From positions 930,001-994,000 of the forward strand of contig JADKKV010000005.1 of the NCBI GenBank assembly GCA_016720345.1: a stretch of DNA of 64,000 nt, read 5' to 3'. The notes under the pieces were generated by a model. The model was not told the origin of the DNA and searched no databases. It saw nothing but the letters and a program-made list of their open reading frames with translations. Shown here one piece after another: positions 16,135-19,979 of the stretch. Source of the DNA: Thermomonas sp. (GTDB taxonomy: Bacteria > Pseudomonadota > Gammaproteobacteria > Xanthomonadales > Xanthomonadaceae). The position numbers and the translations under genes are program-made. Numbering within the stretch: the stretch's first letter is position 1; each line of letters starts with the position of its first letter.

Positions 16135-16160
16135 GTAACCAAACGCGCCCCACCGACGAA
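16135..16160 (+). promoter_or_regulatory. SigF-type ECF promoter of the bufferin operon
   Basis: GTAACC at 16135-16140 and CGAA at 16157-16160 are separated by 16 bases. This is the GTAACC-N16-CGAA layout I know for promoters of the Caulobacter ECF sigma factor SigF, which drives bufferin genes there. A sigma/anti-sigma pair is encoded at the end of this same operon, so autoregulation is likely. The expected transcript start is near 16166-16168. Confidence 0.72.
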
Positions 16161-16163
16161 TCC

Positions 16164-16200
16164 TCCTGTGCAACCCGAGTGGCGGGTTGCGCCCACAGGA
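16164..16200 (+). promoter_or_regulatory. leader hairpin overlapping the bufA Shine-Dalgarno
   Basis: Inner stem GCAACCCG (16170-16177) pairs perfectly with CGGGTTGC (16183-16190) around loop AGTGG. Outer arms TCCTGT (16164-16169) and ACAGGA (16195-16200) extend it across a 4-base bulge. The outer arm contains most of the ribosome-binding AGGAG (16197-16201). If transcription starts near 16167, part of the outer arm is missing and the inner stem would sit at the mRNA 5' end. Confidence 0.6.
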
Positions 16201-16208
16201 GAATCCCG

Positions 16209-16535
16209 ATGTCCGATCTGCGTACCCCCGCCCTGACCGCCGCCGCGCTTGCCGCGGTCCTGGGTTCTGCCTTGCTGGGCGCCGTCACCCCGGCCCAGGC
16301 CGGCGACAAGGCGATGGCCAAGGAGAAGTGCTACGGCGTGGCGATGGCTGGCAAGAACGACTGCGCCGCCGGCCCCGGCACCAGTTGCGCCGGCACCTCG
16401 AAGAGCGACCACCAGGCGAATGCCTGGAAGTACGTTGCCGCCGGCACCTGCACCAAGACCGCCTCCAAGACCTCGCCGACCGGCAAGGGCCAGCTGGCGG
16501 CGTTCGAAGCCACGATGCCCGCCAAGGCGATGTGA
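16209..16535 (+). CDS. bufA: bufferin precursor peptide (DUF2282)
   Basis: Precursor of a copper/metal-binding RiPP. The 108-aa protein has a signal peptide ([23 protein letters not shown], mature start near residue 32). A DUF2282 core of about 50 residues has four cysteines, C41, C52, C60 and C81, in the family arrangement [24 protein letters not shown] and AGTCTKT. In studied bufferins two cysteines are modified by the MNIO enzyme (to thiooxazole-type rings) and the product buffers copper in the periplasm. ATG 16209 has AGGAGA at 7 bases. It is the first gene of a six-gene operon under a SigF-like promoter. Confidence 0.92.
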
Positions 16536-16543
16536 GCCCGCTG

Positions 16544-17431
16544 ATGCGCGCCAGTGCCACCCTCCCCCGCGCCGGCGCGCCCGGCCCCGGCCTGCCCATG
16601 CAGGCCGGGATCGGTTTCAAGCCGGAGCATTTCGATGCGCTGATGGCCGATCCCGCACCGCCGGCCTTCGTCGAGGTGCATGCGGAGAATTATTTCGGCG
16701 ATGGCGGCCTGCCGCATCGCCAACTGGCGGCGCTGTGCGGTCGCACGGCGCTGTCGGTGCATGGCGTGGGGCTGTCGATCGGCGGCCACGACCCGCTGGA
16801 TCGCACCCACCTGCAGCGCCTGCGCAGGTTGCTCGAGCGGCATCCGGCCGCGCAGTTCTCCGAGCACCTGGCGTGGTCCAGCCACGACGGCGTCCACTAC
16901 CCGGACCTGTTGCCGCTTCGCTACGACGACGCCGGCCTGCGCCGCGTGTGCAGCCACGTCGGCGAGGTGCAGGACCTGCTGGGCCGGCGGATGCTGCTGG
17001 AAAACCCGAGCACCTATCTCGAATTCGAAGCCGCCGACCACGCCGAGGCCGGCTTCCTGGCCGAGGTCGTGCGCCGCAGCGGCTGCGGCCTGCTGCTGGA
17101 CGTCAACAATGCCTATGTCAGCTGCCGCAACCATGGCCGCGACGTGCGTACCTACCTCGCCGGATTGCCGCTGCACGCGGTGGGCGAGATCCACCTGGCC
17201 GGGCACGCAACGGTGGCGGACCACGACGGCGGGCACCTGCTGGTGGACGATCACGGTGCGCCGGTTGCCGATGCGGTGTGGTCCCTGTACCGCGAGGTGC
17301 TGGCGCAGGTCGGCCTGGTGCCGACCCTGGTCGAATGGGACACCGACGTTCCCGATTACCCGGTGCTGCGCGCACAGGCGGCGCTTGCCGATGCCTGCCT
17401 GCGCGACGCAGCGACGGCGGTGGCGGCATGA
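16544..17431 (+). CDS. bufB: DUF692 multinuclear iron oxidase (BufB)
   Basis: TIM-barrel enzyme of the MNIO (DUF692) family that should modify cysteines of the BufA core. The 295-aa protein carries the expected metal-ligand motifs: VEVHAENYF (E48), SVHG (H73), SEHLAW (E107, H108), LLENPSTYL (E153), LLLDVNNAYV (D186, N188), EIHLAGH (E215, H217, H221) and EWDTDVP (E264, D266). It begins 8 bases after bufA, and its TGA overlaps the ATG of the next gene. Confidence 0.93.
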   Translation: MRASATLPRAGAPGPGLPMQAGIGFKPEHFDALMADPAPPAFVEVHAENYFGDGGLPHRQLAALCGRTALSVHGVGLSIGGHDPLDRTHLQRLRRLLERHPAAQFSEHLAWSSHDGVHYPDLLPLRYDDAGLRRVCSHVGEVQDLLGRRMLLENPSTYLEFEAADHAEAGFLAEVVRRSGCGLLLDVNNAYVSCRNHGRDVRTYLAGLPLHAVGEIHLAGHATVADHDGGHLLVDDHGAPVADAVWSLYREVLAQVGLVPTLVEWDTDVPDYPVLRAQAALADACLRDAATAVAA

Positions 17432-18219
17432 ACGGACACGCCGATTTCGCCGCCGGCCTGCTACGACCCGAGCGGCCGGCCCCGCAGGCGCTGCATGCCG
17501 CGGATCCGCAGGCGCGCGAGCATCGCTACGCGGTCTATCGCAACAACACGACCAGTGCCCTGATTGCCGCGTTCGCCGCGGCCTATCCGGTGCTGCGCGC
17601 GCTGCTGGGCGTGGACGGCTTCGCCCACCTCGCGCGCGAATGCGCGCGCGCAACCCCGCCGCGCACGCCGGTGCTGGCCGAATACGTGCAGGTCTTGCCC
17701 GGCTTCCTCGCCACCACCCCGCTGCCGGCGACACTGCCGTACCTGGTTGATGTCGCCCGGCTGGAAGCGGCCTGCCTGCGCGTGTTCCACGCCGCCGATG
17801 CCGACGCCTTGCCGGCCGCAGCCTGGCACGCGCTGCAGGCGGATCCGCAGCGGCTTGGGCAGGCGCGCGTGTTGCTGCACCCGGCCTGCGCATGGCTGGC
17901 CTGCACCCATGCGGCGGCCGACCTGTGGCTTGCGCACATGCGCGCGGCGCACCCGGAACTGGCCGAACTGGACCAGGTCGATGCCTACGCTGCGCAGGAC
18001 GCGCTGGCCTGGCGCGACCCGACGGGGCGGGTGCAGGTCGACGCGCTGCCGAGCGGTTGCGCGCTGGCGCTGGATGCGCTGCAGCGCGGCGCACCGCTGC
18101 TGCAGGCAGTGGCGGCGTTGTCCCCGCAGGCTTGCGCCGCGTTGCTGGCGCACCTGGCCGGCGATGGCCTGGCGGTTGCCGTGCAACCCGATCCAGACGG
18201 CCTCGCGGAGGTGTCATGA
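17428..18219 (+). CDS. bufC: DUF2063 partner protein of the RiPP maturase (BufC)
   Basis: 263-aa protein with an N-terminal DUF2063 domain: FAAGLLRPE, then YRNNTTSALIAAFAAAYPVLRALLG. The rest is helical and Ala-rich. In bufferin and related MNIO systems this partner binds the precursor and hands it to the DUF692 enzyme. Both ends overlap neighbours by ATGA (bufB stop at 17429-17431; next ATG at 18216), so expression is tightly coupled. Confidence 0.88.
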   Translation: MNGHADFAAGLLRPERPAPQALHAADPQAREHRYAVYRNNTTSALIAAFAAAYPVLRALLGVDGFAHLARECARATPPRTPVLAEYVQVLPGFLATTPLPATLPYLVDVARLEAACLRVFHAADADALPAAAWHALQADPQRLGQARVLLHPACAWLACTHAAADLWLAHMRAAHPELAELDQVDAYAAQDALAWRDPTGRVQVDALPSGCALALDALQRGAPLLQAVAALSPQACAALLAHLAGDGLAVAVQPDPDGLAEVS

Positions 18220-18704
18220 GTACGACATTTGCACGGCATGCCGCGCCCGTCGCTTCGAGCTGGGTAGCGGAAGCCATCGGCTGGCTCGCGCGCATCGGCC
18301 TGGCGTTCACGTTCTGGCTGTCCGGGCAGACCAAGATCGAGGGCCTGGTGCTGGATCCGCTGGCGCTGCAGGTGCAGTGGGGCTGGCCGCAGGTCAGCGC
18401 GTCGGCGCTGGAACTGTTCCGCAGCGAATACGCGTTGCCGCTGTTGCCGCCGGAGTGGGCGGCGTTGCTCGCCGCCGGCGCGGAGCATGTGCTGCCGCTG
18501 CTGTTGCTGCTGGGACTGGGCACGCGGCTGGCCGCACTGGGCATCCTCGGCATGACCCTGGTGATCCAGGTGTTCGTGTATCCGCTGGCGTTCCCGACCC
18601 ACGCGCTGTGGGCCGCCGCCGCGCTCTACCTGCTCGCCCACGGCGGTGGCCGGGTGGCCCTCGATCGCCTGCTGGCCGGGCGGCTCCGGCAGCAGGGTGC
18701 ATGA
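18216..18704 (+). CDS. DoxX-family membrane protein
   Basis: 162-aa integral membrane protein of the DoxX type. The conserved N-terminal ARIGLAFTFWLSGQTKIEG is followed by a periplasmic loop, then segments AEHVLPLLLLLGLGTRLAALG, MTLVIQVFVYPLAF and a fourth near ALWAAAALYLLAHGG. DoxX genes are regular members of bufferin operons; an electron-transfer or thiol-redox role has been suggested but is not shown by the sequence. It overlaps both neighbours by four bases. Confidence 0.87.
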   Translation: MSTTFARHAAPVASSWVAEAIGWLARIGLAFTFWLSGQTKIEGLVLDPLALQVQWGWPQVSASALELFRSEYALPLLPPEWAALLAAGAEHVLPLLLLLGLGTRLAALGILGMTLVIQVFVYPLAFPTHALWAAAALYLLAHGGGRVALDRLLAGRLRQQGA

Positions 18705-19333
18705 TGGGCGTCGTCCTCCGCCACCCGGCGTGTCCCGTGCCGACCGACGCTGACGCCGCCCCGCAAGCCGATCCATCGCCCGATGACTGGGGGACGTGGA
18801 TGGCGCTGGCGCAGGCCGGCGACCGCCAGGCCTACCAGGCCTTGCTGCAGGCGATCGGCCCGTACCTGCGCGCGATCGCGCGGCGCCTGCTCGGCCACGA
18901 GGATGTCGAGGACGCGGTGCAGGAGATCCTGCTGGTGGTCCACGGTATCCGCCACACCTACCAACCGGGGCGCCCGTTCAAGCCGTGGCTGGCCACCATC
19001 GCCAGCCGCCGTTGCATCGACCTGTTGCGGCGTCGCCAGCGCGAGGGCCTGCGGTTGGGCGAAGCGCTGGACGAGGAGGCCCACATGGACGCAGAGCCCG
19101 GGCCTGCCGAACGGCTCGAACGCGCGCAGCAGGATGCGCGGATGCGCGCTGCGGTGGGGCGCCTCAGCCCCGGGCAGCGCGACGCGGTGCGCCTGCTGCA
19201 CCTGCAGGAACTGTCGCTGCGCGAAGCCGAAGCAAGCGGCGGGCAATCCGCCGGCGCCCTGAAAGTCGCAAGCCATCGTGCGTTGAAGGCGTTGCGCCGC
19301 GCACTGCAAGGAGAACACGACCATGTCCCGTGA
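18701..19333 (+). CDS. sigF: ECF sigma factor, SigF-like
   Basis: RNA polymerase sigma factor of the ECF group, 210 aa. Region 2 is seen in YLRAIARRLLGHEDVEDAVQEILLVVH and in FKPWLATIASRRCIDLLRR. After a linker, region 4 is RLSPGQRDAVRLLHLQELSLREAEASGGQSAGALKVASHRALKALR. It starts with ATG at 18701 overlapping the DoxX stop, and its end overlaps the next gene by 11 bases. Pairing with an NrsF protein and a GTAACC-N16-CGAA site upstream of bufA identifies it as the likely operon regulator. Later starts are possible, because the first ~25 residues are not conserved-looking. Confidence 0.88.
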   Translation: MMGVVLRHPACPVPTDADAAPQADPSPDDWGTWMALAQAGDRQAYQALLQAIGPYLRAIARRLLGHEDVEDAVQEILLVVHGIRHTYQPGRPFKPWLATIASRRCIDLLRRRQREGLRLGEALDEEAHMDAEPGPAERLERAQQDARMRAAVGRLSPGQRDAVRLLHLQELSLREAEASGGQSAGALKVASHRALKALRRALQGEHDHVP

Positions 19334-19979
19334 CACCGATCGCCTGATCGAACAGTTGGCGCTGGAGGTAGTGCCGGTGCGGCCGCTGGCGTCGCCCATG
19401 CAGCGCACCGTGGGCTGGCTGGCCGCCAGCATGGCGGTGGTCGCGGTGCTCGCGGTGTTGCTGGGCTGGCGCGGCGGCATGCCCGCGGACATGGCGGTGC
19501 CCGGCGGCGGGCTGGCGTGGTGGGGCAGCCTGCTGACCGGGATCGTCGCCGCGCATGCGGTGTTCCAGGTCAGCGTGCCGGGGCGCTCGCCGGGCTGGGC
19601 CTGGCTGGCGCTGCCGCCGGCACTGGCCTGGTTCGCCGGCATGGGTTGGGGCTGCCTTGCGGAGGCGCGTGCCGGCACCCTGGCGTTCGGCCTGGAGAGT
19701 TGGCACTGCGCGCTGATGATCACCGTTGTCAGTACGCCGATGCTGCTGGTGATGCTGTTGCTGGTCCGCCACGCCGGCGTGCTGCGGCCGGTGCCGACCG
19801 CGGCGCTGGCGGTGCTGAGCGCGGCCGGCCTGTCGTCGGCGGCGGTCAGCCTGGTGCACGGCCAGGAGAGCGCCGCGCTGACCCTGCTCTGGCACGGCGG
19901 CGCGGTCCTGCTGCTGTGCGCGCTGGCCGCGTTGTCCGGGCGCCCGCTGCTGGGCTGGATCGGCTACGCGCGCCGCTGA
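19323..19979 (+). CDS. nrsF: NrsF (DUF1109) membrane anti-sigma factor
   Basis: 218-aa protein with a short cytoplasmic N-terminus (DTDRLIEQLALEVVPVRPL) and six hydrophobic segments. NrsF holds SigF at the membrane until stress, metals among them, releases it. Cys residues at 111 (MGWGC) and 129 (SWHC) lie at a membrane boundary and are candidates for the sensing cysteines known in Caulobacter NrsF; a third is at 199. It is the last gene of the operon, ending four bases before the convergent DUF2782 gene. Confidence 0.88.
   Translation: MSRDTDRLIEQLALEVVPVRPLASPMQRTVGWLAASMAVVAVLAVLLGWRGGMPADMAVPGGGLAWWGSLLTGIVAAHAVFQVSVPGRSPGWAWLALPPALAWFAGMGWGCLAEARAGTLAFGLESWHCALMITVVSTPMLLVMLLLVRHAGVLRPVPTAALAVLSAAGLSSAAVSLVHGQESAALTLLWHGGAVLLLCALAALSGRPLLGWIGYARR

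Follow-up and report, generated by a model that had tools for sequence, protein, structure and literature searches.

A 64,000-nucleotide stretch of the genome of a Thermomonas sp. (assembly GCA_016720345.1, contig JADKKV010000005.1, positions 930,001 to 994,000; here called the window) contains the six-gene operon bufA-bufB-bufC-doxX-sigF-nrsF, which probably is a Buf1-type bufferin operon that activates itself under copper stress, with an input that is perhaps a Cys111-Cys129-His179 site in the anti-sigma factor NrsF. The six genes share one direction, with gaps of 8 bases at most, and an exact sigma-F promoter precedes them. Judged by its sequence, the cluster is an ordinary Buf1 bufferin cluster of a known, widespread kind (such peptides are called captophorins in PMC13097082), and its anti-sigma factor is a variant that lies outside the published two-cysteine description. 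Papers are cited by PMC number, and what is said of them refers to the excerpts available.

Two conserved cysteines are described for the DUF1109 family of anti-sigma factors (PMC3511200; PMC3420878; PMC8315932). They are C131 and C181 in the NrsF of Caulobacter, and C129 and C179 in OsrA of Bradyrhizobium japonicum, where the C129S protein is constitutive and the C179S protein is not inducible by H2O2 (PMC3420878). The window NrsF (19323-19979, + strand, 218 amino acids), which shares its numbering with OsrA by chance, keeps only the first of the pair: C129 is present, residue 179 is a histidine, and the protein has an extra cysteine, C111, as well as a histidine at position 191. It nevertheless matches the family along its entire length (PF06532, 84.3 bits against a cut-off of 26.8; profile positions 1-204 of 204). 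The replacement is shared by relatives. All 51 distinct NrsF proteins compared have the first cysteine; 35 have Cys and 16 have His at position 179, and C111 occurs in all 16 His179 proteins and in none of the 35 others. A wider set adds the genomes with a match from a class-wide (4/369) and a phylum-wide (14/398) sample, the window being counted in both and both counts being lower bounds, as 7 or 8 first-look candidates were scored per genome. In this set C111 is present in 28/30 His179 proteins vs 0/36 Cys179 proteins, C129 is present in 67/67 readable rows, and position 179 is Glu in a single row. In a profile-profile alignment of the two types, H179 falls in the column of C179, and H191 is paired with a conserved Tyr. 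NrsF trees from which these columns had been removed require one change for the His179 set, with support of 100/100 in the tree of the host family and alphaproteobacteria and 91/80 in the wider set; they present the Cys/His difference as a single old change that was well kept, and not as repeated evolution. Two proteins branch just outside the His179 group, one with Cys129, Cys179 and His191 but no C111 (L261) and one with Glu at position 179 (L276), and both are possible intermediate steps of the Cys-to-His switch. Simple hydropathy did not cleanly resolve six helices in the window NrsF, and the topology used below is that of the papers. No description of the His179 variant was found among the titles and abstract openings listed for the literature on NrsF, DUF1109, ECF16 and bufferin-associated sigma factors, a search in which most subscription journals lay outside the coverage.

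Sigma-F of Caulobacter recognizes GTAACC-N16-CGAA (PMC3511200), and the sequence-only reading had placed such a box just upstream of the operon. An exact copy with its -35 and -10 elements indeed lies at 16135-16160 (+ strand), 48 bases 5' of bufA, and is the single match in the window, where shuffled sequences contain 0.02 exact boxes on average (2/100 shuffles have one). No other exact copy exists in the 2.66-Mb genome. As the reversed pattern matches 3 times there, a single genome match is unsurprising by chance and it is the location that carries the weight. To see whether the box accompanies the regulator, we compared, at 100 DUF2282 loci, the stretch of 260 bases that precedes the bufA match. 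A relaxed box, GTAACN-N15/16-CGAA, whose form was picked after inspecting the box data of the host family, precedes bufA at 27/36 loci with NrsF vs 1/64 without it; the compared loci are related, so that a Fisher value is no strict probability here, but the contrast is still very large. In control windows of the same loci the relaxed box occurs in 18/18,881, and among the 57 of the 64 NrsF-less loci whose flanks reach 2 kb or more before and 4.5 kb or more after bufA it occurs in none (0/57). The strict form shows the same direction (6/36 vs 0/64). Within the host family, GTAACY-N15/16-CGAA precedes bufA at 8/8 bufferin loci with a His179-type NrsF (in one of them, G007, the sigma gene lies on a separate contig) and precedes the sigma gene at 8/8 His179-type loci in genomes that lack a DUF2282 match. 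Because of this comparative test, self-regulation of the operon through its own sigma-F box, as had been proposed from the sequence alone, appears well supported. The sigma pair closes the row of bufferin genes, and free sigma-F should therefore raise its own production. A sigma-F regulon beyond the operon could not be made out: GTAACY-N15/16-CGAA has 3 sites in the genome against 8 for the reversed control, and the pattern with two mismatches allowed is uninformative. Between the box and the start of bufA, the 5' untranslated region can fold into a hairpin (16163-16201, + strand; -25.5 kcal/mol, z -2.95) whose 3' arm contains the likely bufA ribosome-binding site, which the hairpin would mask. 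The hairpin is not clearly conserved among the relatives inspected; in one of them, L181, a comparable stem is possible.

The gene content and the overlaps among the last five genes stand as first described. All six genes (16209-19979, + strand) are in frame and intact, each running from ATG to TGA, and every product scores above a family cut-off, Pfam matches being judged against the curated cut-offs and NCBIfam models against their own. bufA (16209-16535) encodes a DUF2282 precursor of 108 amino acids with cysteines at 41, 52, 60 and 81 (PF10048, 82 bits, cut-off 22.4). It is separated by 8 bases from bufB (16544-17431), which encodes an MNIO bufferin maturase of 295 amino acids (PF05114, MbnB_TglH_ChrH, 326.3 bits; NF050167, MNIO_BufB, 353.6 bits, cut-off 310). 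The next genes, with overlaps of 4, 4, 4 and 11 bases, are bufC (17428-18219; DUF2063 partner protein of the PME1 type, 263 amino acids; PF09836, 59.6 bits, cut-off 27.2), doxX (18216-18704; DoxX-family membrane protein, 162 amino acids; PF07681, 62.5 bits, cut-off 23.6), the gene of a sigma-F-like extracytoplasmic function (ECF) sigma factor (18701-19333; 210 amino acids; PF04542, Sigma70_r2, 56.1 bits; TIGR02937, 74.8 bits, cut-off 42.9) and nrsF. The Sigma70_r4_2 domain of the sigma factor, at 25.5 bits, falls just below its cut-off of 25.7. General ECF models recognize the protein, the best specific one (PRK12512, 127.4 bits) stays below its cut-off of 198, and the set contains no ECF16 model. 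BufC likewise does not reach the HvfC equivalog NF050145 (34.9 bits vs 142). In BufB the conserved polar positions are present, 22 polar positions being shared by at least 97% of 106 MNIO rows. A search of solved structures matched the MNIO enzyme to 8 distinct chains, with 3BWW as the best and MbnB entries included, and returned no match for BufC at E 0.001. The xanthomonad-like host that had been suspected is a member of the Lysobacteraceae/Xanthomonadaceae, the closest named relative returned being Lysobacter tabacisoli (69% identity in BufB).

The six-gene layout is recurrent and not unique. Among 198 sampled genomes of the family it stands on one contig at 7 of 22 DUF2282 places, the window included; an eighth set (G007) is divided between two contigs, and two genomes of another class (L284, L285) have the same layout. 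At alphaproteobacterial loci with a sigma match, the sigma gene is mostly divergent from the bufferin genes. In a quick tree, BufB of the window groups with those of seven other His179-type bufferin operons of the family inside an 11-row group; the fork of these 8 rows has a support of 93, below the level starred by the program. Recent transfer of the operon receives no support from base composition (70-75% GC in the genes, 69.6% in the window). DUF2282 was found in 4/8 sampled genomes of the genus. Two genomes of this genus (L171, L173) contain bufABC-doxX with a BufB of another lineage and have no sigma or nrsF match in the part fetched. At two further loci (L174:900-3440 in genome G040 and L183:1-3290 in G183) nrsF is followed directly by the gene of a Cys-rich, duplicated precursor of the Buf2-like kind, which is accompanied by a separate MNIO gene, and in G040 a second, exact GTAACC-N16-CGAA box precedes this precursor.

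With regard to the product, the sequence-only reading went further than the comparison allows. It had regarded the core peptide and its cysteine spacing as specific to this organism and the product as possibly new. The fetched loci yielded 108 rows of DUF2282-like precursors, with 93 distinct cores when the window is counted (L020 and L172 come from one genome). In 97 of these rows the four cysteines have the same 11-8-21 spacing as in the window, and the core of one relative (L177) is identical to that of the window in 37/41 residues, with 4 differences; an organism-specific, new core is thereby ruled out. In Buf1 precursors four cysteines are kept, the central two being modified and the outer two forming a disulfide (PMC12452194). 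This description, the common spacing and the likeness to L177 together lead to the prediction of an ordinary Buf1 bufferin. The N-terminus of BufA is hydrophobic, ends in AQA and looks Sec-like by eye. A thiooxazole product and copper buffering would be consistent with the literature, in which characterized thiooxazole peptides are said to bind copper generally (PMC13097082).

The closest described counterpart is bufferin 1 of Caulobacter vibrioides/crescentus (bufA1B1C1 with a DoxX gene and SigF/NrsF), which shares with the window the four-cysteine DUF2282 precursor, MNIO, DUF2063 and DoxX proteins, the pairing of sigma-F with a DUF1109 anti-sigma factor and the GTAACC-N16-CGAA promoter (PMC3511200; PMC12452194); sigma and NrsF genes are reported in Buf1 but, in the excerpts of that survey, not in Buf2 clusters (PMC12452194). 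In Caulobacter, however, sigF-nrsF is a unit of its own and sigma-F serves further promoters, whereas the pair of the window closes the bufferin operon and a single exact box is present genome-wide; of the two key cysteines of the Caulobacter NrsF, C131 and C181, the second is replaced by His179 in the window protein, which has Cys111 in addition. The gigPABT-rpoQ-rsqA cluster of Cupriavidus metallidurans, which also contains genes for an ECF sigma factor and its anti-sigma factor, has been equated with that of Caulobacter (PMC8224329) and is induced by copper and gold (PMC10304878). Its sigma pair is transcribed divergently to the gig genes and is RpoD-dependent, in contrast to the co-directional, overlapping pair of the window, and its NrsF-type protein is described as keeping both cysteines (PMC3511200), of which the window protein has the second replaced. 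EcfF/OsrA of B. japonicum resembles the window pair in the DUF1109 anti-sigma factor, C129 and a self-regulated sigma factor, but OsrA has C179, without which it does not respond to H2O2, and methionine-sulfoxide reductases belong to its regulon (PMC3420878); in the window residue 179 is His and the operon would make a bufferin. Fontiphorin, oxazolin and other EGKCG captophorins likewise depend on an MNIO enzyme and a DUF2063 partner and are copper-binding 5-thiooxazole peptides (PMC13097082), their precursor being an EGKCG repeat instead of a DUF2282 protein. A second MNIO cluster of the same genome, on another contig (L085:5076-7087), is of this sort, with an EF-hand and EGKCG-repeat precursor, an MNIO enzyme and a DUF2063/NGO1945_C partner (DUF2063, 87 bits). 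Sigma-F control of this cluster is not supported: its 12-kb stretch has no sigma-F box with fewer than two mismatches, and its 8 sites, against 4.88 expected, all have two.

A mechanism can be proposed from these parts. Following what is known of the family, BufB and BufC would convert C52 and C60 of BufA to 5-thiooxazoles, C41 and C81 would form a disulfide, and the peptide would be exported by Sec and bind excess copper in the periplasm. At rest NrsF, as a six-helix membrane anti-sigma factor, would hold sigma-F until copper, or a different soft metal, disturbs NrsF from the periplasm; once released, sigma-F would read its own operon, amplifying both the peptide and the switch. Copper as the signal agrees with the copper induction of the sigma-F regulon and the copper sensitivity of a sigF mutant in Caulobacter (PMC8224329), and with periplasmic copper as the inducer of the related gig operon (PMC10304878). 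The least certain step is the input site, which may consist of Cys111, Cys129 and His179, perhaps with His191; we infer that C111, C129, H179 and H191 form one putative site. Such a Cys-Cys-His site would fit metal binding better than oxidation of Cys179 or sensing by a 129-179 cysteine pair, since Cys179 is absent, which makes that pair impossible, and since a His and a Cys were gained near the periplasmic side of the published topology.

Besides the limits of the box test given above, several observations weigh against this mechanism. Nine of the 36 NrsF loci have no relaxed box upstream of bufA. The window NrsF misses the NCBIfam equivalog AntiSigF_NrsF of the Caulobacter type (27.4 bits vs a cut-off of 300). 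Two His179 proteins (L275, L277) lack C111 and have a Cys directly before the His, at 178, and position 191 in the 30 His179 proteins is His in 26, Gln in 2 and Asn in 2. As the trees contain one change, the coupling of C111 and H179 is a single kept event and not many repeats. Deletion of rpoQ in Cupriavidus raised gig expression (PMC10304878). Finally, 8/16 family genomes with the His179 type have no DUF2282 match (one of them, G176, is 85% complete), so that the sensor is not specific to bufferins.

A first alternative keeps the operon as described and lets NrsF sense oxidation, with C111 standing in for C179: a C111-C129 disulfide, or oxidation of either cysteine, would free sigma-F and make NrsF a redox sensor, at odds with a metal site, while His179 would be structural only. 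We judge this possible but rather unlikely. It gains from the fact that all 30 His179-type proteins have at least two cysteines, C129 being joined by C111 (28) or by Cys178 (L275, L277), from the H2O2 response of the Cys179 relative OsrA (PMC3420878) and from the weaker oxidative-stress resistance of a Caulobacter sigF mutant in stationary phase (PMC8224329). However, it leaves the retention of His179 in 30/30 proteins unexplained; the sigma-F genes of Caulobacter are induced by chromium and cadmium (PMC3511200) and by copper (PMC8224329) and, in the published excerpts, not by agents that generate reactive oxygen species, and for the Cys-Cys type an intramolecular C131-C181 bond was excluded by the Caulobacter authors (PMC3511200).

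It is improbable that NrsF does no more than hold sigma-F while the signal comes in by another route, such as DoxX or unmodified BufA. The constant position of doxX, directly before the sigma gene in 7/7 contiguous six-gene loci of the family, would suit this idea, under which orphan pairs of the His179 type would take their signal from other sources; on the other hand, the eight family genomes without DUF2282 keep C111, C129, H179 and H191, which argues for a function inside NrsF. Equally doubtful is that the peptide binds mainly another soft metal (gold, silver or cadmium) instead of copper, or that the system acts as a general envelope-stress guard: the gig operon was named for gold (PMC10304878) and chromate and cadmium induce the Caulobacter sigma-F genes (PMC3511200; PMC8224329), but characterized thiooxazole peptides are said to bind copper, as cited above, and loss of sigF in Caulobacter impairs growth in copper and is reported to leave chromium and cadmium sensitivity unchanged (PMC8224329).

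The His179-type pair also occurs beyond Buf1 clusters. In the eight bufferin-less genomes of the family the box lies 68-249 bases before the sigma match, and NrsF has the same C111, C129, H179 and H191. In G281 and G404 (loci L262 and L263), which belong to another family of the same class, a His179-type pair is divergent from an EGKCG-type captophorin cluster and a sigma-F box precedes the EGKCG-type precursor; the excerpts of PMC12452194 name no sigma gene for EGKCG clusters. At one bufferin-less locus (L190:5915-11719) the His179-type sigma and nrsF genes are followed by genes for a fusion of a VTT domain with a pyridine-nucleotide oxidoreductase, for a transporter of the PHO4 family and for a methyltransferase that has Cys pairs; together they may be a gene set for metals or metalloids. 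Tentatively, and with the odds rather against it, two sensor types might be distinguished within NrsF: the Cys111-Cys129-His179 type, often with His191, would be a membrane-embedded periplasmic sensor to which Cu(I) or a comparable soft metal binds directly, with release of sigma-F, and the well-studied Cys129-Cys179 type would read thiol chemistry; a bufferin operon containing the switch would then be a copper-triggered positive feedback that its copper-binding product shuts off.

The natural His-for-Cys lineage is a ready-made experiment on whether NrsF senses by metal binding or by cysteine oxidation: a histidine forms no disulfide and can bind metal. The reason for renewed interest in this operon is accordingly not its peptide, but an NrsF variant that would enable a direct test of sensing.

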